Shown piece by piece: positions 3,547-62,700 of a stretch of 64,000 bases of DNA. Each line of letters begins with the position of its first letter. Positions within the stretch are counted from its first letter, which is position 1. Position numbers and translations under genes: made by a program. The notes below the pieces were generated by a model. It was not told the origin of the DNA. It searched no databases and worked only from the letters and a program-made list of their open reading frames with translations. The stretch is from assembly GCF_900167535.1 (NCBI RefSeq), contig NZ_FUYE01000013.1, positions 62,001-126,000 on the forward strand. Direction: 5' to 3'. The stretch comes from Prosthecobacter debontii. Its GTDB lineage: Bacteria > Verrucomicrobiota > Verrucomicrobiia > Verrucomicrobiales > Verrucomicrobiaceae.

Positions 3547-3755
3547 GGGGAGAAAAACGAGGCAATGAGGCGGCATATTGCCAGCGAATCGACTCGACCG
3601 AAACAGCCTCGTCGCCCCGGCCATCTGCCCCCCCGGCAGTCCCGGCCCTTCAAGGTCCGTATCGAGGTCGCTTTTAGTCCCGTCGATATCGCGATGCCTA
3701 CATGAGGATCGGGATGCATCGTTCGAAGTTAATTTCCAGTCACCACGATGGACAC

Positions 3756-3847
3756 AACCCCGTTGGGGTTGCTCTGCAAATTCCCGCATCATACATGCAA
3801 CCCAGGGTTGGGGCAACCCTGGGCTCAATGACGCAAGCCCTTTGGGC
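3756..3847 (-). repeat. three-hairpin REP-like element (reverse copy 1)
   Basis: Three palindromes lie in order: AACCCCGTTGGGGTT at 3756-3770, CCCAGGGTT...AACCCTGGG at 3801-3823, and GCCC-TTT-GGGC at 3837-3847. The same order occurs at 5077-5171 and 5595-5689, and inverted at 4399-4500 and 5428-5530. The outer hairpins have three-base loops. This copy has a decayed third palindrome (CCCTTTGGG instead of CCCGTTGGG). Confidence 0.85.
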
Positions 3848-3870
3848 TTGGCCCTGGAGCGGGCCGGTTT

Positions 3871-3990
3871 GAGGTGATGATACGCGAGCATGGTTCGACG
3901 TGGAGCCTGCGTGTGAGTGTGGAAACACCGGATGAGGCAATGACACGCAGCCATGGTGTGGCAGGACACCCCCCGGTCCCATACGATCCT
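3871..3990 (+). repeat. 63-bp tandem repeat, first block (about 2 units)
   Basis: A unit starting GAGGTGATGATACGC at 3871 is followed exactly 63 bp later by GAGGCAATGACACGC at 3934. The unit core is a GACACGCAG-like start, TGGTTCGACG, and a GTGGAAACAC end. The second unit diverges after TGGTGTGGCAG and leads into the hybrid hairpin element, just as the last unit of the second block does. Confidence 0.8.
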
Positions 3991-4004
3991 GCATCCCCTC
4001 CAAT

Positions 4005-4115
4005 GCCAACGGCATTGTGTCTTTCAGCCCAGGGTTCTCTGAACCCTGGGTAGCGTGCACGAGGGTGTTTGAAATCCCGGGCAACCCTGGGCTCAACGAC
4101 GCAAGCCCGTTGGGC
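4005..4115 (+). repeat. hybrid three-hairpin REP-like element
   Basis: The left half matches the forward element (GCCAACGGC at 4005-4013, CCCAGGGTT...AACCCTGGG at 4028-4050, then TAGCGTGCACGAGGG). The right half matches the end of the reverse element (AACCCTGGGCTCAACGACG, then GCCCGTTGGGC at 4105-4115). It reads as a recombination product between one forward and one reverse element. Confidence 0.75.
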
Positions 4116-4137
4116 TTGGCCCTGAATTGGTTGGTTA

Positions 4138-4389
4138 GAGGCTATGACACGCAGACATGGTGCGACGCGGGGCCCGGGCGTAAATGTGGAAACACGGGAT
4201 GAGGTGATGACACGCAGGTATAGTTCGACGCGATGCCTGGGCGTGAATGTGGAAACACGGGATGAGGTGATAACACGCAGATATGGTTCGACGTGATGCA
4301 CGGGCATGAATGTGGAAACACCGGATGAGGTGATGACATGCAGACATGGTGTGGCAGAACACGCGCACGGTGCCATGGGGTTCTGCATA
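4138..4389 (+). repeat. 63-bp tandem repeat, second block (about 4 units)
   Basis: Units begin at 4138, 4201, 4264 and 4327, each exactly 63 bp apart. All share GAGG..ATGACACGCAG near the start and GTGGAAACAC near the end; the middle two are nearly identical. The last unit carries the TGGTGTGGCAG variant and passes into the forward hairpin element at 4399. Since 63 is a multiple of three, frames stay open through the array, but none has a credible start or neighbour, so I treat it as non-coding. Confidence 0.85.
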
Positions 4390-4398
4390 CCTCTCAAT

Positions 4399-4500
4399 GC
4401 CAACGGCATTGTGTCCCTCAGCCCAGGGTTCTCAGAACCCTGGGTCGTCTGCGTGTGAGTATTTCGTGGGGCGGGCAACCCCAACGGGGTTGCGTCCATC
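4399..4500 (+). repeat. three-hairpin REP-like element flanking the RAYT 3' side
   Basis: GCCAACGGC (4399-4407), CCCAGGGTTCTCAGAACCCTGGG (4422-4444, written here as two stems around CTCAG) and AACCCCAACGGGGTT (4477-4491) are followed by GCGTCCATCG. This is the reverse complement of the element at 5077-5171, so the transposase gene lies between an inverted pair. The element ends about 36 bp from the transposase stop codon. Confidence 0.85.
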
Positions 4501-4536
4501 GGGGTGAGTGGACACACTCTCCCGAATGGTGCCTTT

Positions 4537-4992
4537 CTAATCCCACACGTAGGCTTCATCCCACTTCTGGCCATGCTTACGCAGAAGGGCACGATATTCA
4601 TCCTGAAAGGTCACGCCACGATGATGCGCTTCTTGATCTTCAATGTAACGTGTCACGGGTGGAAGCTGCGATTCTGAGACGGAAAAGACACCATATCCTG
4701 CCTGCCAATGGAAGTTGCAAAATTCTTGCCCCTGATTCTGAATCCAATGGGTGGAACTGCGTTTGACCTCTTTCACCAAGTCCGCGATGCAAAGCGTGCG
4801 CGGTAATGTGGCCAGTAGATGCACGTGATCACTGACTCCCCCAATGATGAGAGGCTGACTGTCTAACGTTTTTAAACACCCGCCCAAATAGGCATGGACC
4901 TCTTGGCGAAAACTGGGGTTTTGAAAAGAAGGCATGCGGTCTTTTGTCGAGAAAACCGTGTGCAGAATGACGCGGGCGAGGGACTGCGGCAT
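4537..4992 (-). CDS. REP-associated tyrosine transposase (RAYT), Y1/IS200-like
   Basis: The 151-residue protein belongs to the Y1_Tnp (PF01797) HUH single-strand nuclease fold. The metal-binding motif is DHVHLL (HxH), and the candidate nucleophile is the tyrosine in WQAGYGVFSVS, a sequence typical of RAYTs. N-terminal ARVILHTVFSTKDR is also usual. RAYTs are believed to recognise and mobilise REP hairpins. The match is reinforced by inverted three-hairpin elements on both sides (4399-4500 and 5077-5171). The start at 4992 (MPQSL) was chosen because it opens the conserved fold; the longer open frame to 5094 crosses the hairpin element. The gene has no partner protein and appears intact. Confidence 0.9.
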   Translation of the reverse strand: MPQSLARVILHTVFSTKDRMPSFQNPSFRQEVHAYLGGCLKTLDSQPLIIGGVSDHVHLLATLPRTLCIADLVKEVKRSSTHWIQNQGQEFCNFHWQAGYGVFSVSESQLPPVTRYIEDQEAHHRGVTFQDEYRALLRKHGQKWDEAYVWD

Positions 4993-5076
4993 GGGGCATC
5001 GTGAACGATCACGCTGGAATTGGCAAGAGGCGACGAAGGCGAGATGAGGAAGGGAATTTGTTTTACCGGTGGACGG

Positions 5077-5171
5077 AACCCCGTTGGGGTTCACCGCGAT
5101 GCGTGGCGGTGGGGGCCTGCGAGACCCAGGGTTGTGCCAACCCTGGGCTCAATGACGCAAGCCCGTTGGGC
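5077..5171 (-). repeat. three-hairpin REP-like element flanking the RAYT 5' side
   Basis: AACCCCGTTGGGGTT (5077-5091), CCCAGGGTT-GTGCC-AACCCTGGG (5125-5147) and GCCCGTTGGGC (5161-5171) occur in that order, with CTCAATGACGCAA between the last two. It lies about 85 bp upstream of the transposase start and is inverted relative to the element at 4399-4500. Confidence 0.85.
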
Positions 5172-5427
5172 TTGGGAGGGAAGCGGCAACAAGGCATGGT
5201 GAAAACCGCGAGTGATGCGAACTGTTTCCAGAGCCATTGCGTGATTTGATGCATCAGGTTCAAGACCATAGGCTTTAAGATATGGGGCCATTATTCATGA
5301 AACTAGCCGTGTGGGACATCCCTCCCCATTGGATTCCCTGATCCCTGCCGATGGCCTTACGATATGAATGCTGTTCTTCGTGAAACCCCTAGCTCACATC
5401 CATGCTCTATTGGGTGTCTGCATCAAT

Positions 5428-5530
5428 GCCAACGGCATTGTGTCTTTCAGCCCAGGGTTCTCTGAACCCTGGGTAGCGTGCACGAGGGCGTTTGAGATCC
5501 TGGGCAACTCCAACGGGGTTGCGTCCATCG
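5428..5530 (+). repeat. three-hairpin REP-like element (forward copy)
   Basis: GCCAACGGC (5428-5436), CCCAGGGTT...AACCCTGGG (5451-5473) and AACTCCAACGGGGTT (5506-5520, one stem mismatch) precede GCGTCCATCG. It pairs with the reverse copy 65 bp downstream. Confidence 0.85.
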
Positions 5531-5594
5531 TCGGGTGGTCGTTGAGGGTGGTTTTATCTCCGCACCTCATGTTAGACCGAGCCTTCATGGACAG

Positions 5595-5689
5595 AACCCC
5601 GTTGGGGTTCGCCGACATTCATGGTGGTGGGGTTCTGCGAAACCCAGGGTTGGGGCAACCCTGGGCTCAATGACGTAAGCCCGTTGGGC
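5595..5689 (-). repeat. three-hairpin REP-like element (reverse copy 3)
   Basis: AACCCCGTTGGGGTT (5595-5609), CCCAGGGTT-GGGGC-AACCCTGGG (5643-5665) and GCCCGTTGGGC (5679-5689). It ends about 12 bp from the stop codon of the beta-propeller gene on the minus strand, so it may also serve as that gene's transcript 3' end. Confidence 0.85.
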
Positions 5690-5700
5690 TTGGGGGGAGG

Positions 5701-6606
5701 TCAGCGCAGGATTTGACCCTGGGTCACATCACCAGTGACATCGAGGACTTGGATTTGATTGATGTCTTTGAAGTGGGCGTGGTCGGCGGATTCCCAAACG
5801 ACTTTTTTGTCGGGAGTGACCTCGAAGACTTGGGGTTGCTCGCCGAGATGGCCGTGGCCGAGGTAATTACAAAAGACGGTGTTGCCGTTGGGCAGGCGCT
5901 GGCAACCGGCCATGAGGCGGAGGGTGTTGCCGGGGAGGTCGTTTTCGTTGAGCTCCCAGACGACTTGGCTGTCGGGGGCGATCTCTTGGACTTTGTGCCC
6001 GTCGCCACAGGTGATGAGGAGGTTTCCGCTGGGGAGGGGCACGACTTCATGGGGATCTCCCGGCACGGGGATCTCGCGGAGGACTTGGCCGGTGGGGTCG
6101 AGCTCGACGACTTTGCCCTCACCTTTGAAGGTGACGAAGTAGTGGCCGTTGGCGGTTTTACGGGCGCCGCGGAATTGGTTGTGAATCTTTTCGCAGGTGG
6201 TGACGAGCTTGATTTCTTTGGCGATCTTTCCGGCGCGGTTGACCTCGATGAGGCGGCTGGTGCCGCATTCGACGATCAAGACGTCGCCATTGGGGAGGGG
6301 CTGGCAGGCATGGCACTCGACCTTGGTGTCGGTGGGGGCTTTGTATTCCCAGACGACTTGTTTATCGCGGGTGATCTCCTGGGCACCGTCGAGGTAGGCG
6401 AAGAGGATGTTGCCATTGGGCAGGAGCCAGCAGTCCTGCGGGCGTTTGGTCTCGATTTGCCACTCGATCTGGCCGCTGGGGGTGACGATGCTGATGGTAT
6501 TACCACCATAGTCACAGCAGAGAAAGGGACGTGAAGGGGAGTCGGCGTGGCTGGTGAGGGTGAGGGCCACGATGGCGATGCTGAGGAGGCGGGGAAGGAG
6601 ACGCAT
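5701..6606 (-). CDS. secreted beta-propeller repeat protein
   Basis: The 301-residue product starts with a signal peptide (MRLLPRLLSIAIVALTLTSHA). The rest consists of about six repeats of 40-45 residues carrying LPNGN/LPSGN and VVWE-type motifs (DCWLLPNGNILFAYLDG, PLPNGDVLIVECG, PLPSGNLLITCGDG, RLPNGNTVFCNYLG). This pattern is seen in PQQ-like and arylsulfotransferase-like propellers. No catalytic residues can be assigned, so a binding or scaffold role in the periplasm or outside the cell is an inference. The gene stands alone between the RAYT repeat field and a MITE-like element. Confidence 0.8.
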   Translation of the reverse strand: MRLLPRLLSIAIVALTLTSHADSPSRPFLCCDYGGNTISIVTPSGQIEWQIETKRPQDCWLLPNGNILFAYLDGAQEITRDKQVVWEYKAPTDTKVECHACQPLPNGDVLIVECGTSRLIEVNRAGKIAKEIKLVTTCEKIHNQFRGARKTANGHYFVTFKGEGKVVELDPTGQVLREIPVPGDPHEVVPLPSGNLLITCGDGHKVQEIAPDSQVVWELNENDLPGNTLRLMAGCQRLPNGNTVFCNYLGHGHLGEQPQVFEVTPDKKVVWESADHAHFKDINQIQVLDVTGDVTQGQILR

Positions 6607-21185: not shown

Positions 21186-24065
21186 TCACATCTTCCTCCG
21201 TTTCTCTACGGCTTTGCGGATGGAGCCTTCGACTTCCACCCATGCTGTCGATGGGTGATCGAAGTGAAAGATACACTTGGCATCTCGGGTAGCGCATTGG
21301 AGCTTCTTGAGTTGGGATTCCAGGGCGTGAGTAGTATCTAAATCGGAGCGTTCCAGCGGCACCCAGATCACGCTGCATTCGTTTTTGTCGGAGCGTTCCA
21401 GGGCAATGCGTAGTTCCGTTTCCTGGATGAATTTCGAGACTCTCGCGGCGGTGGTATAAAACAGCAGCACGATATCGGCTTTGTTCAGGGCATCGAGTAT
21501 ACCTGTCTCCCAGCATTCCCCGGCGATGAGATCGCGATCCTGCCAAACCTGGATGTAACCGCGCTGGCTCAGTAGCGTCAGGTGCGGCTTGATCGGAGCG
21601 ATCTCCTTTTCATTCGCATGGGCATAGCTGATGAAGAGTTGCATGCGCTTCTCGGGTTCGGGCCCGGTGGCGATGCGCGACTCTTTGCTTTCCACCGTGT
21701 CCAGGGTTTCCACAACGGGCAGCTTGATGCGTTTGGCTTCGGCTCCTTCGCCCACGGTGATCTTCATCGTGTCGTCTTCATCTCGCTCAGCCAGTCGCAG
21801 GTCTTGCATGGCGACCCACTTTTCCGGGTCATTCACCGCCTGCACTTCCTCGACTGCGGGCACCTTCCCATGCAAGGTCACGAGATGGGATCGGATGATG
21901 TCAAACAAACCCTGCCTCTGCTCATCGGGGCCGCCGATCACTTCCACGGTGGTTTGCCTTTGCGAGCGATCCAGCCGCACCAGAGCTTGGCAACCATTCC
22001 ACACCAGCACCACGCCACTGCGCCAGCGCCATTCGGGGTGAGGTTGGCTCAGTTCATGGGTGCGCACGATCAGGCGAGGCAGCAGCCCTGGTGGCAAAGC
22101 TTCGGGGTAGGTATAGCGCAGTCTCTTGACGTCTTTGCCACGGAACTCCATGAACGCCGCAGGCTGAACCTCCGGCAACAGTTCGGGAATGAGCCAGCGC
22201 GTTGGCTCGGCGTCTTTGGTTGTAGGCAGGGCAAAGGCCACTTCAAATTTCTCCATCAGCTCCAGCACAAAGCCATGTTTCTCGGCGGGGTAATCCTTGG
22301 CCAGTAGTGCTTTCGCTAACCAACTCTTCTCCAACACGCCGCAGCAGTCTTGCTTCTGCGCATAACGTAGCAGGCCGTAAATGCCCTCCGTCACCCACTG
22401 CGGTTTCAGCACGCTGGTGTGTTTCAGCCGATGATGATCGCGGAAGTTCAGGGCAATGCCTAGCCGGTGCAGGTTTTGGGCGAGGCTGTCCTGCTGATCC
22501 TCTTCGGGCACATCGTGCCTAGTGCAGAGCTTTTGATAATCCTTGTAGTCCAGATAGCTCTCCTCAGTCTGCCCCAGCTCTTCTTTGATTCGGTGCCACT
22601 TTTTAGGCACGCCTGCCCACACATGCTCCATCTGATCCACGGTCTTCTCCAGCGAGGTGCGCAGTTCCTGGATACCTAACCGCGTCTTCGCATCGGTTTC
22701 GACAAAACCGACGATCTGCGGGCAGCGTTCTTGCAGACGGAAACGATCTACGGAGAAGGGGTGTGAGGCATACTTATTCAGCACCACCAGGACCGGACTA
22801 TCCCCACCGAAGCTCTGGATGAAACGCAGCCAGTAGTCCGTCTCCAGCTCCCAATTCCCATCCCGCCCTTCCAGCACCAGCACGTACACACAGCGCTCGC
22901 TCAGGAAGATCTGATGCGTGCCGTGCAGAAACTCCTGGCCGCCGAAGTCCCAAGTGTGCGCTGTGGCTTCTCCCTGAGGACAATTCACGGGTAGGGGAAG
23001 TACGGTGATTCCCGGAGTTTCTTGTTCATTCCGGTCATGCGGCTTATCGCGCAGAGCTTTAAGCAAGGAGGTCTTCCCCACCCGTCCCCTTCCTACCATC
23101 AGCAGCCGCACTTCCTGCATCGGCTCGGTACCTTGGGTTTGCTGGGCGAAGTAGTAATCCAGAATCGCCTTCGGGGAGGCTGAAGGCATTTTCAGCATGA
23201 CAACTTCGTCCCACCTCGGACCCAGCACTTCTGAGGGCAGACTCAGGCCAGGATTACCATGTAGATAGAGACGTTTTAATGACTCAATTTGGTATAGCTC
23301 CGCTGGGAGTTTGGTCAGTGCCATATTTTGCAGCCACAGTTCTGAAAGAGCTGTGAGATTCCCCATCTCTGAAGGTAATCTATGGACTGGATTGTCGGAA
23401 ATGTTGAGGTTGGCGAGCTTCTTTAATCGCCCAATATCTTCTGGGATTGTGGTGATCTGATTGTCAGCGGGCCAGAATGTTTGCAGTTTTGTAAGATTCC
23501 CAAGTTGAGGGGGAAGTGACGTGAGCTTGTTAAACTGGATGTACAACGTCTGTAGAGATACGAGTTTTCCGATCTCCGGCGGCAGTCTTGTAAGCTGGTT
23601 GTCTGGGACGTCAAGCCTCCTCAGAGACTCGAGTTTTCCGATCTCTGGCGGCAGGCTCGTGAGCTGGTTTTCAGTGAGATTAAGTGTCGCCAGAGACTCG
23701 AGTTGACCTATCTCTGGCGGCAGACTCGTGAGCTGGTTTTGGGAGACATTAAGCGTCGTCAGGGATTGGAGTTTTCCGATCTCTGGTGGCAGGCTCGTGA
23801 GTAGATTGTTTTGGAGGTCAAGCCGCTTTAGAGCCTGAAGTTTTCCAATCTCCGGCGGCAGGCTCGTGAGCTTGTTCCTTTGAAGATGAAGCGTCTTCAG
23901 AGCGCGTAGCTCGCAAATCTCTGGCGGAAGTCGAGGAAGATTAAGGTCGCTTAAATCAAGTTGAGTTCCATGTTCCCCTTCACTCTTACAGTGCTCAATC
24001 CATAAAAATGCTTTGTTATAAGCTTCCAGCTCCCAAGAATTCATCGGTGCTTCCGGTGTCGCCAT
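21186..24065 (-). CDS. LRR-Roc-COR GTPase with a C-terminal TIR domain (prokaryotic Roco protein)
   Basis: The 959-residue product has ten or so 23-residue leucine-rich repeats (about 35-280, each with the LTSLPPEIGKL pattern). A Roc GTPase domain follows (about 318-480): P-loop GRGRVGKTS at 325-333, G3 WDFGGQE with D373, G4-like NKYA at 430-433. A COR region spans about 500-740 (EESYLDYKDYQKLC, LKPQWVTEGIYGLL). A TIR domain occupies about 806-955, starting LFISYAHANEKE and carrying GECWETGILDALNKADIVLLFY; E884 is the candidate NADase glutamate. The domain order makes a regulated NTP switch controlling an NAD-cleaving or signalling TIR output plausible, as in immune proteins. It has no operon partner. 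M1 or M8 may be the start. Confidence 0.88.
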   Translation of the reverse strand: MATPEAPMNSWELEAYNKAFLWIEHCKSEGEHGTQLDLSDLNLPRLPPEICELRALKTLHLQRNKLTSLPPEIGKLQALKRLDLQNNLLTSLPPEIGKLQSLTTLNVSQNQLTSLPPEIGQLESLATLNLTENQLTSLPPEIGKLESLRRLDVPDNQLTRLPPEIGKLVSLQTLYIQFNKLTSLPPQLGNLTKLQTFWPADNQITTIPEDIGRLKKLANLNISDNPVHRLPSEMGNLTALSELWLQNMALTKLPAELYQIESLKRLYLHGNPGLSLPSEVLGPRWDEVVMLKMPSASPKAILDYYFAQQTQGTEPMQEVRLLMVGRGRVGKTSLLKALRDKPHDRNEQETPGITVLPLPVNCPQGEATAHTWDFGGQEFLHGTHQIFLSERCVYVLVLEGRDGNWELETDYWLRFIQSFGGDSPVLVVLNKYASHPFSVDRFRLQERCPQIVGFVETDAKTRLGIQELRTSLEKTVDQMEHVWAGVPKKWHRIKEELGQTEESYLDYKDYQKLCTRHDVPEEDQQDSLAQNLHRLGIALNFRDHHRLKHTSVLKPQWVTEGIYGLLRYAQKQDCCGVLEKSWLAKALLAKDYPAEKHGFVLELMEKFEVAFALPTTKDAEPTRWLIPELLPEVQPAAFMEFRGKDVKRLRYTYPEALPPGLLPRLIVRTHELSQPHPEWRWRSGVVLVWNGCQALVRLDRSQRQTTVEVIGGPDEQRQGLFDIIRSHLVTLHGKVPAVEEVQAVNDPEKWVAMQDLRLAERDEDDTMKITVGEGAEAKRIKLPVVETLDTVESKESRIATGPEPEKRMQLFISYAHANEKEIAPIKPHLTLLSQRGYIQVWQDRDLIAGECWETGILDALNKADIVLLFYTTAARVSKFIQETELRIALERSDKNECSVIWVPLERSDLDTTHALESQLKKLQCATRDAKCIFHFDHPSTAWVEVEGSIRKAVEKRRKM

Positions 24066-58447: not shown

Positions 58448-59709
58448 TCCTCGGCCTTGGGATGAACCTTTGAGCGATTCAGATTCCTCGGTTGCGTGAG
58501 ACCTGTTCACGCAGCCGTCTCCGGCGGGATTGGAGCCCTGGGGAGTCATCGCGAATCTGTCGTTAGGGACAGTGCAGACCGTGTGCTGGAGTCGGGGCAG
58601 GGAGGCTACGGAGCTGCGTGCTTTCGCCTCGCCAAACGTTCTTGCTGATTTGCATTCGATTCCCATGCGGAACCTGGGTGAATCACTCGCCGAGATGTCA
58701 AACGAATTGATTCGTTTGTTTGACTTTTGGTTAGTCGGGAGCGAGCTGAACTGGATTCACCCTCTCCTCACCCTTGGGGGTAAGGGGGATTGTTTCTGTT
58801 TATGTTTCTGATTCTGATTGGTTTTGTTTAGCTTTGGTTTGCTTAAGCTGAGAAAAGCTGTGGGTTTCCTGGAGCTAACCTGTAGCTTTCAGGTGTGATC
58901 CCTCACGATGCGACCGCGGGCCCGTGATAGTGATGCGGTCACTCTTGGCCGCAAGGAAGTCCAAGCGAGATCCCTATCCACATCAAGCCCTGAAGATAGG
59001 CCTGCGACTGCGGCCAGGAGTGGCCGCATCACTCTTGGCCGCATGGAGGTCCAAGCGAGCTTCTTATCCACATCCAGCCCTGAAGATGGGCTCTCCAGGA
59101 CTTCGAGGTCGTCAGAAGACGAGGCATGTCGTTCAGCCTGCGACTGCGGGCAGGAGTGGCCGCATCACTTTTGGCCGCAAGGAAGTCCAAGCGAGATTCT
59201 TATCCACATCCAGCCCTGAAGATAGGCTCTCCACGACTTCGAGGTCGTCTGAAGACGAGGCACGTCCGCTCGGCCTGCGACTGCGGGCAGGAGTGGCCGC
59301 ATCACTTTTGGCCGCAAGGAAGTCCAAGCGAGCTTCCTATCCACATCCAGCCCTGAAGATAGGCTCTCCACGACTTCGAGGTCGTCTGAAGACGAGGCAT
59401 GTCGTTCGGCCTGCGACTGCGGCCAGGAGTGGCCGCATCACTTTTGGCCGCATGGAGGTCCAAGCGAGATTCTTATCCACATCAAGCCCTGAAGATAGGC
59501 TCTCCACGACTTCGAGGTCGTCTGAAGACGAGGCATGTCGTTCGGCCTGCGACTGCGGCCAGGAGTGGCCGCATCACTCTTGGCCGCAAGGAAGTCCAAG
59601 CGAGATTCTTATCCACATCAAGCCCTGAAGATAGGCTCTCCACGACTTCGAGGTCGTCTGAAGACGAGGCACGTCGCTCGGCCTGCGACTGCGGCCAGGA
59701 GTGGCCGCA
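58448..59709. other. 1.26-kb intergenic region with hairpin, unclassified DNA and a tandem-repeat array
   Basis: A hairpin lies at 58490-58516 past the TPR gene. Between 58520 and 58930 I see no credible gene; a 93-codon frame at 58530-58811 has a strange composition. From 58934 a 136-bp tandem array runs into the next gene. Frames inside the array are repeat by-products. Confidence 0.7.
58490..58516 (+). terminator. hairpin past the TPR gene
   Basis: GGTTGCGTGA-GACCTGT-TCACGCAGCC pairs over 10 bases with one G-T wobble. A T-tract is lacking, so it may be a transcript-end stabiliser more than a strict intrinsic terminator. It lies 43 bp past the stop. Confidence 0.5.
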
Positions 59710-59717
59710 TCACTTTT
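58934..59717. repeat. tandem array of a 136-bp repeat, about 5.7 copies
   Basis: CCTGCGACTGCGG recurs at 59001, 59137, 59274, 59410, 59546 and 59682, so the unit is 136 bp (137 once). A partial unit precedes 59001. Each unit carries a TGCGGCCA-GGAG-TGGCCGCA-type hairpin, a GAAGTCCAAGCGAG block, a TTATCCACATC block and a GACTTCGAGGTCGTC block. Copies differ by scattered substitutions. The last copy stops at GCATCACTTTTG, which includes the stop codon of the alpha-2-macroglobulin gene. Confidence 0.9.
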
Positions 59718-62700
59718 GAAACCCTAACTCCACGAGCAAAGCCTTACATCCCACGGCGTTGCCTTTGAGTTCGGGGGCATACATGGCCTCGACTTTCGTG
59801 GGCAGGGCGCTGAAGCGACCGGGGATCTCGGCTTTCACACGGTAGCTGAGGTTATGGGTGCCGCGAGGCAGGCGCTCGGCAAAGAAGGCCACTTTTTCAT
59901 CGCGGTATTCCTTGTAGGAGGTGAGGCCTTCGTAGCTCCAACCGCTCTGAACTTCGATGGGTTCAAAACCGGCGGGTTTCAGGTCTTCGATGAGCACATA
60001 CTCATAGTCGTTCTTGCTGTCGATGCTCAGCTCCACTTCGATGAGGTCACCACTCTTGATGGGGCTATCGCTGGCGATTTCCTCGCGACGATATTTCAGG
60101 CCCTGCTGAGTGACCACCTGACCGCGTGCTCCAGCCACTTGCTGGTCCTGTTTCTCCTCGATGAGCTTGTAGAACTTGCGGCGGGCTTTCACTTCCAGGC
60201 CGGCGGCAGGGATGGGATCTTCCTGACTGAAGACGGTGAGGTAGGCATTGGCATAGAGCGGGGATTCACCCAGCTTACGCAGCTCCAGGGTGTGCTCACC
60301 GGTGGTGAGTTCATCGCCTTCCAGCACCAAGGTGCCATCGAAGGTGAAGAGGTTCTCGCGGGTGATCTCGACCTTCTTCAGCGACTTGCCATCCAGCAGG
60401 ATTTCCACCGTTTGGTTAGGCTTGGATTCGCCGCTGGCTTTCACATAGGCGGCCAGGGCCTCGATGACGGCGGCGGTGTCCTTGGTGCTGTTCCAGTAGG
60501 TGCCGTTGCGGCGATTGTTGAGCAAGTATTTGGCAATGCGTGGGGCCAGTTCACCCTTGGGCTCTGCAGCCACGAGCAGGCGCAGGAAAGCGGCCTGGGT
60601 CTCGATCTGATCTTCATACCAATACCACCACCAACCGCCCTGCGGCAGATCCAGATAGGCGGTCTGGTTTTCATCGTCCTGCTTGAGGAACTGCTTCAGA
60701 TTGCGCAGGCACATATCGCGCCGTTCAGTTTCGCCTGCGGCATCACAGGAGAGGCCGAGCAGGGCGAGATTGTAGCGGGAGAGTTTGGCGCGGTTTTCAT
60801 AAAGCCGATCCCGCATCTCCTTCTCACCCATCTTATGCCCCATCAGCACGCTGTGGATGAGGGCGTCCAGATTGTCGGGTGCGGCTTTATGGTTCTTCTC
60901 TTTGGGGTCTAGGCGCAGACGATTCAGTTCCTGAGCTTCATGTTGCTTGAGCCACTCCATGCCTTCATTGACGAGGCCGTCATTGATGTCCAGACCAGTT
61001 CGTGCGGCGGAGATCAGACCATGCAGCACCACAGCGGTGATGTGCGGGGAAGACTCACGGCCACCTGGGAACCAGCCCCAGCCGCCGTCATCGTTCTGCA
61101 TGGCTTGCAGGCGAGCCAGTCCGGTCTTGGCCATCTTCTTGACTGCGTCTTCGTCAAAGACCGCGTTCTTTTTCGGATCGTTCTGCCAGCGTTTCGCGCG
61201 ATCCTCCGGCTTGCCAATTTCCTGCGCGTTGAGGTTGGTGCGCTTGTCTTTGATGTCCTTGAGGTTCACCTTCAGATCCTTGAGCAGACCCAGGGTGAGA
61301 ACGGTAGGCACAAAGCGATTGAGCGTCTGCTCGGTGCAGCCATAGGGGTAATCCGCCAGATAGGGCAGGGCATCCACCAGAGCCATGGCCAGGGTGGGGG
61401 AGTAGCGGATCTCCAGGCGGGATTGCTCGGGCTTACGCTCGGCAGGCACACGTAGCTTGATCGTGCCGCTGGCTTCAGTCGGGCGGATGGCGAGACTCCA
61501 GGCATCAGTCTTGAGGATGCCGTGGGTGTAAGCCGGGAAGGTCATTTCCATGGCATCGCTGTCCTTTTGAGCCAGGGCTTTGACGCGGATCTTGGGCTCG
61601 CCTTCGCCGGTGACTTTGACACGCCAGTCAAACCGATGCTCGCCATGGGCGGGGATGGTGACGGGGGCGAGGGCCAAGCTTGGAGCACCGCCTTGAGGCG
61701 GTTCAGTTCCGGCTGAAGCCGGGGCTCCAAACGCCAGCACGCCGCCTTCGAGTTCCAGCACGGCCTTCACGCTTTGCTCGACATCCATTTCGTTATGCAC
61801 GTTGGCTGAGATGACCACCTCATCCTTCTCCACGAAGAAGCGCGGGGCTTGCAGGCGGACCATGAGGTTCTTGCGAGTGATGACCTCCACACTGGCTTCA
61901 CCAACTTGCGTTTCGCTGCCCATCACCCAGGAGCGCAGCTTCCAGGTGGTGAGGTTTTCCGGCAGGTTGAAATGAAATTCGCCCTCACCCTGGGCATCCG
62001 TGGTGAAGTCGGCGATCCACACCGCGCTGTCGGCGAGGTTGCTGCGGATCATCGGCTGCGGGCCTTCTTCGCTTGCGCCTGCGGCGTCGGCTTCCATGGC
62101 CACTGCGGCGACACCTGCAACCGGACTTGGTGCAGCCATCTCAGCCATCGGGGCTGGGGCGGGAGCCCCCGGTGCCATCTTCATGGTCGTGTAAGTTACT
62201 CCGCTGGCCGAACCTGCTCTCATGACTGCACCACTCGCAAAAGGATCTCCAGCAGACTCATCCGCCACACTACCGCCAAACGCTCCCAAGGTGTTCATCC
62301 ACGCCTCGCCTTGTTTTTGCAGGCCGGTTTCCAGGGCATGCAGGGAGTCGGTGACTTGAGGATAGTGGCTGCGTTTCCAGCCCCAGAAGAAGGGGCGGAT
62401 GTCTTCCTGATTGCTGCCGCCGGAGATGTATTCCAGGGCTTTGTCATAGGCCGTCAGCACGACCTTGCCAGTGAAGGGTTCGCCGTTTTGATCTCGCACT
62501 TTCACCTTCACCTTGGAGCCTTGGCCAGGCAGGTAGGTGGTGCTGTCAGGGGTGAGTTCGACACTGGCGATGCGCTTGCTCGGTGGCACCAGGATCTGAC
62601 GCGTGACCTGATGCACTCGGGCCTCGGCGACGGTGTAGGCCTCGATGAAAATGTTGGGCTGATCCTTCTCTTCAAGTTTGAAGCGGTAGGTGGTGCTCTT

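Follow-up and report, generated by a model that had tools for sequence, protein, structure and literature searches.

A Y1 transposase gene of IS200 class between inverted three-hairpin modules in Prosthecobacter debontii, and dispersed REPIN-like module pairs

In insertion sequences of the IS200/IS605 family, such as IS608 and ISDra2, the two ends of the element form hairpins on the same strand. A different arrangement is found in the REPtrons of E. coli, Pseudomonas and Stenotrophomonas, where a class 2 enzyme, the RAYT (REP-associated tyrosine transposase), is encoded by a Y1/HUH gene lying between inverted repetitive extragenic palindromes (REPs). The repeat family is tied to the enzyme and is also dispersed outside genes as inverted pairs, the REPINs. 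Here we describe a locus that shares features with both, in a stretch of 64,000 nucleotides from Prosthecobacter debontii (assembly GCF_900167535.1, contig NZ_FUYE01000013.1, positions 62,001 to 126,000; this whole stretch is called the window). It consists of a Y1/HUH transposase gene between two inverted copies of a module of three hairpins, and an earlier note on this DNA had taken the enzyme to be a RAYT.

The motif NP(L/V)(R/K)xG is described as peculiar to RAYTs (PMC2817692). Their genes, also known as tnpAREP, are described as mostly single-copy, and there is said to be no evidence of their mobility (PMC8266576). An ancestral IS200-like element has been suggested as the possible source of REPINs, which would derive from its ends (PMC3116915). 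A further group of enzymes, TnpAY1 subclass 1.2, is characterised by the motif Y---Q--HH (Quentin et al. 2018, PMC6006769). It was described mostly from Cyanobacteria and Bacteroidetes, and Table 1 of that paper lists it without REPs; the automatic REP search used there demanded GTAG or GTGG.

We consider it likely that the locus is an IS200-class REPtron, and that paired modules without a gene are REPIN-like passengers moved by its enzyme. The unit itself is discrete, about 0.7 kb long, and made up of a subclass 1.2 HUH/Y1 gene between two inverted three-hairpin modules. Its layout is that of a REPtron with REPIN-like pairs and its enzyme class is IS200-like, while the three hairpins per end, with their set linkers, differ from both. 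The finding holds up, and it reaches further than the earlier note had seen. The parts of the unit are as follows, with bit scores from the covariance model R1 described below.

Window 4537..4992, minus strand: Y1/HUH transposase gene, 151 residues; Pfam Y1_Tnp, E 1.4e-19; motifs DHVH, WQ and YIEDQEAHH.
Window 4392..4509, plus strand: three-hairpin module on the 3' side of the gene, with H3 nearest to the gene; R1 102.9 bits; H1 4395-4411 followed by TGTC, H2 4422-4444, H3 4476-4492 followed by CGTC.
Window 5059..5177, minus strand: three-hairpin module on the 5' side of the gene, inverted; R1 106.1 bits; H3 5076-5092, H2 5125-5147, H1 5158-5174.

The motifs of the enzyme were read from an alignment with 31 homologues. 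The subclass 1.2 motifs DH[IV]H, WQ and Y---Q--HH and a length of about 150 residues are present, and the low copy number is also shared (PMC6006769). By its motifs, the enzyme fits this IS200-class subclass. Among 162 collected proteins, the wide-scan half of which was itself gathered with the pattern WQxGYGxF, the strict form Y...Q..HH is found in 154 and DHxH in 157, and Y...NP in none.

The modules beside the gene face inwards, so that H3 adjoins the gene on both sides. The hairpins H1 (CAANNCC-AAC-GGNNTTG) and H3 (CAACCCC-AAC-GGGGTTG) are related and share one orientation. Their stems measure 7 bp and their loops 3 nucleotides (nt), and each is followed by a 3' tag YGTC (GACR on the opposite strand). 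Between them lies H2 (CCCAGGGTT...AACCCTGGG), led by AGCCC. A Y1 gene between a forward and a reversed element, each of three hairpins, is what the earlier note had described, and the sequence, hairpins and coordinates are as it gave them; the kinship of H1 and H3, the tag and the inward facing refine that description. With up to two mismatches, the pattern CAANNCCAACGGNNTTGNGTC occurs 12 times in the window, always within 3751-5692, compared to a mean of 0.06 and a maximum of 1 in 100 shuffles. Over 43 aligned modules from this genome and its relatives, 97.0% of the stem cells are paired, and 10 of the 23 pairs have been altered on both sides (72 cells), with some such changes in all three stems. 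None of 500 shuffles reaches any of five measures of pairing, and sliding the partners by one column lowers the pairing to 57-63%. A chance origin of the hairpin modules is excluded, also by this covariation. Rfam gives no match at E<=0.1 within window 3600-5800, and no hairpin in the module alignment carries GT(A/G)G as a head at its 5' foot.

The modules are not confined to this gene. The window's own genome (G000 in our numbering of genomes, with contigs numbered C and loci L) has 6.29 Mb, and window coordinates are genome coordinates minus 62000. R1 was built from 21 G000 modules and 22 from G001, G002, G005, G008, G018, G020, G022 and G023, and its matches in these source genomes are expected by construction. 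In G000 it gives 33 matches at E<=0.01, of which 22 are strong (E<1e-19), 17 of these being outside the window. Twenty-one of the 22 strong copies had served to build the model, and the independent finds are those of two other searches: blastn with one module gives 17 places in the 6.29-Mb genome, and the pattern CAANNCCAACGGNNTTGNGTC, with up to one mismatch, gives 25 places in the whole genome as against 0 when it is read backwards. The dispersal of the hairpin elements in the genome is upheld, as is the earlier note's count of four further copies within 2 kb, one of them a hybrid. R1 resolves these into three full modules and the hybrid:

Window 3738..3853, minus strand: further full module, with no full partner adjoining; R1 104.2 bits.
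Window 3992..4121, both strands: hybrid, in which a forward H1-H2 is fused to a reverse H2'-H1'; R1 65.2 bits (3998-4106, plus) and 47.9 bits (3992-4121, minus).
Window 5421..5538, plus strand: left module of a gene-less inward-facing pair; R1 101.6 bits.
Window 5577..5695, minus strand: right module of the same pair; R1 100.5 bits; 38 nt between the two matches.

A 63-bp tandem array (window 4144-4351, 3.3 copies, 86% matches) fills the gap between the hybrid and the 3'-side module.

Eight inward-facing pairs of modules are present in G000, with H3 in the middle and 16-47 nt between the modules, the same geometry as around the gene. Among 150 listed R1 matches, neighbours separated by -30 to 60 nt face inwards in 30 cases and outwards in 5, and none are in tandem. 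One gene-less pair of 255 nt, folded with DNA parameters, forms a single long hairpin (z -6.4). The pairs thus have the form of REPINs, which are extragenic inverted pairs foldable as one hairpin; there are eight, one of which was folded. Ten dispersed elements were inspected in G000, and all lie between larger reading frames. The two longest frames that overlap elements (370 and 203 residues) give no match to any Pfam or NCBIfam family, and several of the neighbouring genes are named by Pfam.

The association also recurs in relatives. Homologues of the enzyme are found in 28 of the 37 genomes of the order, and those of 65-70% identity, in seven other genomes, carry modules of the same kind; the module is thus not absent from relatives with a close homologue. 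In six (G001, G002, G005, G008, G020 and G022) there are inward-facing modules on both sides of the gene. In G018 only the right module is in place; the nearest module on the left, about 130 nt off, is reversed, and the nearest inward-facing one is about 260 nt off.

A comparison was made by scoring inverted repeats between the 150-nt flanks of each gene, where a score of at least 14 was called strong. There were 99 homologue matches in the relatives, of which 90 loci were fetched and 81 counted (two duplicates, six partial proteins of fewer than 137 residues and one short flank were dropped). Strong inverted repeats flank 52 of these 81 genes. Among positions shifted along the same loci they are found in 5 of 316, and among cross-paired flanks, which include some orthologues, in 31 of 648. 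In a wide scan of one genome per species (84,980 species), seeded by one peptide pattern and confined to the best 80 of at least 581 stretches, they flank 58 of 77 genes, as against 7 of 281 shifted controls. Control genes from the same order (tRNA methyltransferase and epimerase homologues) have none in 34; full flanks were available at 77 of 80 wide-scan loci and 34 of 36 control-gene loci. Two hairpins are found in 4 of 68 control-gene flanks of 150 nt and three hairpins in 0 of 68. Three or more hairpins per 190-nt flank are present in 120 of 319 flanks (9 of 498 in controls).

The flanks also share a layout. A hairpin led by AGCC and pointing to the gene is found in 90 of 163 flanks in the window's own order, and in 29 of 965 control segments. 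In the wide scan, whose counts per phylum are not frequencies and whose phyla were assigned from record titles, it is found in 45 of 70 flanks in Verrucomicrobiota, 26 of 43 in Planctomycetota, 8 of 16 in Acidobacteriota and 8 of 16 in other phyla. In some Bacteroidota loci, for example L197 of Labilibaculum, the three-hairpin layout can be made out by eye. In the unfiltered data the linker between H1 and H2 measures 8-14 nt in 90 of 108 cases, and that between H2 and H3 falls into two classes, of 17-25 nt (48 of 110) and 28-35 nt (51 of 110). One layout recurs in Verrucomicrobiota, Planctomycetota and Acidobacteriota, and less often in Bacteroidota: H1 is followed after about 10-11 nt by an H2 that is led by AGCC, and this in turn, after about 21 or 30 nt, by H3.

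Because the two H2-H3 classes are about 10 nt apart, a difference of one duplex turn was considered. The test was confined to 78 flanks, from 33 of 100 protein clusters, whose linkers did not exceed 20 and 45 nt; the centre-to-centre distances show no periodicity (R about 0.1 at 10.5, compared to 0.56 for linker length), and helical phasing of a duplex was therefore dropped.

The strong flank repeats of the relatives and of the wide scan contradict the description of subclass 1.2 as having no REPs, rather than the placement of the enzyme in it. Unlike in the 2018 account (PMC6006769), modules here flank many members, chiefly in Verrucomicrobiota and Planctomycetota, and their hairpins lack GTAG or GTGG. 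We found no later paper linking the subclass to repeats in the open-licence literature, outside which most subscription papers and preprints lie.

The ends of the unit were taken from paralogues within one genome only. Sharp ends seen between genomes were not taken as proof of transposition, because neither intergenic DNA nor gene order is conserved. Three sets of paralogues were found, and two of them fit. In a trio in G005 (86-88% identical) the shared sequence reaches 153-157 nt upstream of the gene and 131-152 nt downstream; in a pair in G012 (85% identical) it reaches 130 nt upstream and 126-128 nt downstream. Beyond these limits nothing is shared, and the homology in both sets stops at the outer edge of H1 or close to it. 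A small co-occurrence test addressed the specificity of the modules. A search with the G005 trio's module gives 28 matches in G005 itself. In G036, whose enzyme is the nearest one elsewhere (69%) and which was chosen in the knowledge that this enzyme is of the same clade, it gives 14 partial matches (35-45 nt), and in G000, G001, G008, G011, G018 and G020 none. In five of these six (G000, G001, G008, G011 and G020) the nearest collected enzyme is at most 45% identical to the trio. A second enzyme of G000 (C13:24618) has a distinct module family of its own, with 8 matches, some of them partial, which include inward-facing pairs on C12 and C29.

A shared neighbour in G001 and G018 (L054 697-1286 and L059 2746-3332) lies on opposite sides of the unit and is reversed, as though an inversion of the unit between its own modules had taken place.

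We propose that the modules would fold in single-stranded DNA, such as the template of the lagging strand. A dimer of the transposase would recognise the hairpins of its own module family and cut near the outer edge of H1 via a 5'-phosphotyrosine. The strand would be rejoined elsewhere, and in this way either the whole unit or gene-less inward-facing pairs, similar to REPINs or miniature inverted-repeat transposable elements, would be copied or moved. The single-strand action is modelled on the relatives IS608 and ISDra2. What the sequences themselves show is the anatomy, the compensatory changes in the stems, the dispersal as inward-facing pairs, the recurrence of the arrangement in several phyla, the ends of homology in two of three paralogue sets and one small co-occurrence result; binding, cutting, the choice of hairpin, the single-strand route and present activity are all things that we infer. 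That the enzyme acts on these elements, as the earlier note also supposed, is suggested by correlations in the sequences, which now give it more support than before.

Several observations weigh against this proposal. One set of paralogues, L089 and L092 in G005 (76% identical), shares 324-326 nt upstream of the gene and only 21-23 nt downstream. The G018 enzyme is 62% identical to the G005 trio, yet the trio's module has no match there. Enzyme and modules do not always go together: eight genomes without a homologue of at least 65% identity still have 1-10 strong modules (at least 73.8 bits; G015 10, G009 4, G006, G016 and G011 2 each, G007, G004 and G013 1 each), and in G001, G020, G022 and G002 the enzyme is present with only 2-3 strong copies, mostly the flanks of the gene. 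This mismatch could be explained by loss of the enzyme, by incomplete assemblies (that of G015 is 81% complete) or by their use by other enzymes. The flank repeat is not strong in 29 of the 81 relatives' homologues and in 19 of 77 in the wide scan; the gene-pointing AGCC hairpin is found in only 1 of 12 Bacteroidota flanks in that scan, and AGCC hairpins that point away from the gene also exist, notably in 7 of 16 Acidobacteriota flanks. The G000 copies outside the window are 72-84% identical to the window element, save for a single 24-nt piece at 96%, and in view of this clear divergence the family may now be inactive.

A search for direct signs of movement, which yielded none, also belongs on this side. 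The genes around two dispersed pairs, named by Pfam, were each sought in 22 genomes, G000 included. In none of the 20 relatives that could be assessed is the pair tRNA_U5-meth_tr/ZnuA kept together (at a 21st locus the sequence stops at the gene), nor is GlcNAc_2-epim/DUF1553 in any of 13. There being no synteny beside the query genes, no empty sites can be read, and because gene order is so poorly kept, differing contexts across genomes do not by themselves prove transposition. G020 and G001 are about 92-93% identical at the enzyme locus. One strong dispersed G020 copy gave a split match in G001, the left flank being matched at 93% and the right flank elsewhere at 77%.

At another module site (L324/L319), G020 differs from G001 by a few hundred nt just outside the module, within which no module sequence is seen by eye.

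The alternative that survives best, though we think it unlikely, is that the modules are cis-acting structural elements of this gene and of further intergenic regions, either terminators or hairpins for RNA stability, kept by selection after spreading long ago or in some other way, and that the transposase has been domesticated or is regulatory and does not move them. Several of the ten inspected elements do sit, by eye, between convergent genes, TnpAREP genes have been described as housekeeping-like (PMC8266576), and this alternative would account for genomes that have modules without a close enzyme. It accords poorly with a module family that belongs to one enzyme clade and is absent from six genomes, with two of three paralogue sets ending at or near H1, and with gene-less pairs that mirror the geometry of the unit.

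The preferred reading, that of a REPtron with an IS200-class enzyme, must also be set against an ordinary IS200/IS605 insertion sequence, with hairpin ends, a TnpA and high mobility. The enzyme has the HUH and tyrosine catalytic residues and the TnpA fold of IS200/IS605: an AlphaFold2 model (predicted local distance difference test 91.9) ranks the TnpA of IS608 and ISDra2 first in fold comparison, and a profile search of the Protein Data Bank (PDB) finds the same two as the nearest solved relatives. The score with NCBIfam transpos_IS200, 47 bits, is slightly below the cut-off of 55. However, the ends of the unit are inverted, with three hairpins each, and IS200/IS605 elements are stated to be without terminal inverted repeats (PMC2817692). 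The four other relatives of the enzyme in G000 are 38-50% identical to it, unlike the near-identical copies of a multicopy insertion sequence, and no tnpB was seen, as judged by eye, among the reading frames of 1-12 kb. An ordinary insertion sequence is accordingly improbable.

At one G000 locus (L132, C31:10832-11266) the catalytic tyrosine is replaced by histidine. Its inverted flank repeat is not strong (score 8); this agrees with the preferred reading, under which a dead unit could be expected to lack one.

Slightly less probable still is that the dispersed pairs are moved by another Y1 enzyme of the genome and that the window enzyme is a passenger. There are candidates: of the ten Y1_Tnp matches in G000, five belong with the window enzyme, which is counted among them, and the other five, with NHVH and Y..xNP, are class 2-like. 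But no other Y1 gene in G000 adjoins a strong R1 match, and the enzyme at C13:24618 has a module family of its own.

Of the five class 2-like proteins (L006-L010, on C7, C14, C11 and C6), L006 to L009 were scored for their flanks, and other inverted repeats are found at L006 (score 23) and L008 (20), with L007 and L009 at 13 and 14; the palindromes of L008 include GTAG, as classical REPs do.

A canonical class 2 RAYT with unusually complex REPs, finally, is scarcely credible, even though the REP-gene-REP layout and the dispersed inverted pairs are as described for RAYTs (PMC2817692, PMC3116915), given a REP_Tyr_transpos score of 20 bits against a cut-off of 80, the counts of Y...Q..HH and Y...NP among the collected proteins, and modules without the GT(A/G)G head. 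In the window protein the motif NP(L/V)(R/K)xG was not found, YIEDQEAHH being present at the catalytic tyrosine instead; E. coli TnpAREP is absent from its PDB profile matches at E<=0.01, and in the fold comparison TnpAREP (4er8) comes 30th, behind the IS200/IS605 enzymes. The name RAYT given in the earlier note is therefore not sustained, and the enzyme is better labelled as being of subclass 1.2 type and IS200 class, with what seems to be a RAYT-like way of working. The system differs from RAYT-REPIN in its class 1-like enzyme (Y---Q--HH and not Y---NP), in having three hairpins with set linkers per repeat and not one, in the lack of a GT(A/G)G tag, and in whole-unit paralogues within a genome, where the account of tnpAREP gives no evidence of mobility (PMC8266576).

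More tentatively, and as a suggestion that may well prove wrong, subclass 1.2 as a whole could be a living intermediate between IS200/IS605 and RAYT/REPIN, combining movement of the whole unit with the seeding of enzyme-specific gene-less pairs, and using compound recognition of three hairpins with set linkers. It may account for many of the intergenic palindromes of Verrucomicrobiota, Planctomycetota, Acidobacteriota and some Bacteroidota. We know of no described Y1 transposase with compound three-hairpin recognition of this kind. The findings themselves give partner DNA to an enzyme subclass described as lacking it, and offer an origin for a class of intergenic palindromes in several phyla. 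They present an IS200-class enzyme with two faces, whole-unit copies within one genome and dispersed gene-less pairs, and supply many enzyme/module pairs, several of them in one genome, with which the reading of multi-hairpin substrates by Y1 enzymes can be tested.

Because of the YGTC tag on the modules, the CGTC-tagged REPs were also considered. Their tag reportedly lies 5' of the hairpin, unlike the tag here, which is 3' and, by eye, is not common to the modules of other enzyme clades. The description of Di Nocera (2013, PMC3733652) is similar in that these REPs are short palindromes with CGTC or TGTC on one side, mostly present as inverted dimers, and they are said there to be without a dedicated transposase. 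An identity was rejected, since the stems of 7 bp and loops of 3 nt compare with 8-9 bp and 4-5 nt in Table 1 of that paper. The same work describes the TIRYTs and their TIRtrons, in which a Y1 gene likewise lies between long terminal inverted repeats; some of these are self-complementary and recur within the genome (PMC3733652). These enzymes are, unlike ours, mostly of class 2.1 (20 of 26) and have a C-terminal extension (PMC6006769), and no three-hairpin module is described for them in the parts consulted.

Two further repeats were noted elsewhere in the window. One, at 58999-59718, is a tandem array of 5.3 copies of a 136-bp unit, with 94% matches. The other, at 23554-23876, is a 69-bp tandem repeat in 4.7 copies, which from its appearance may be a stretch coding for leucine-rich repeats.

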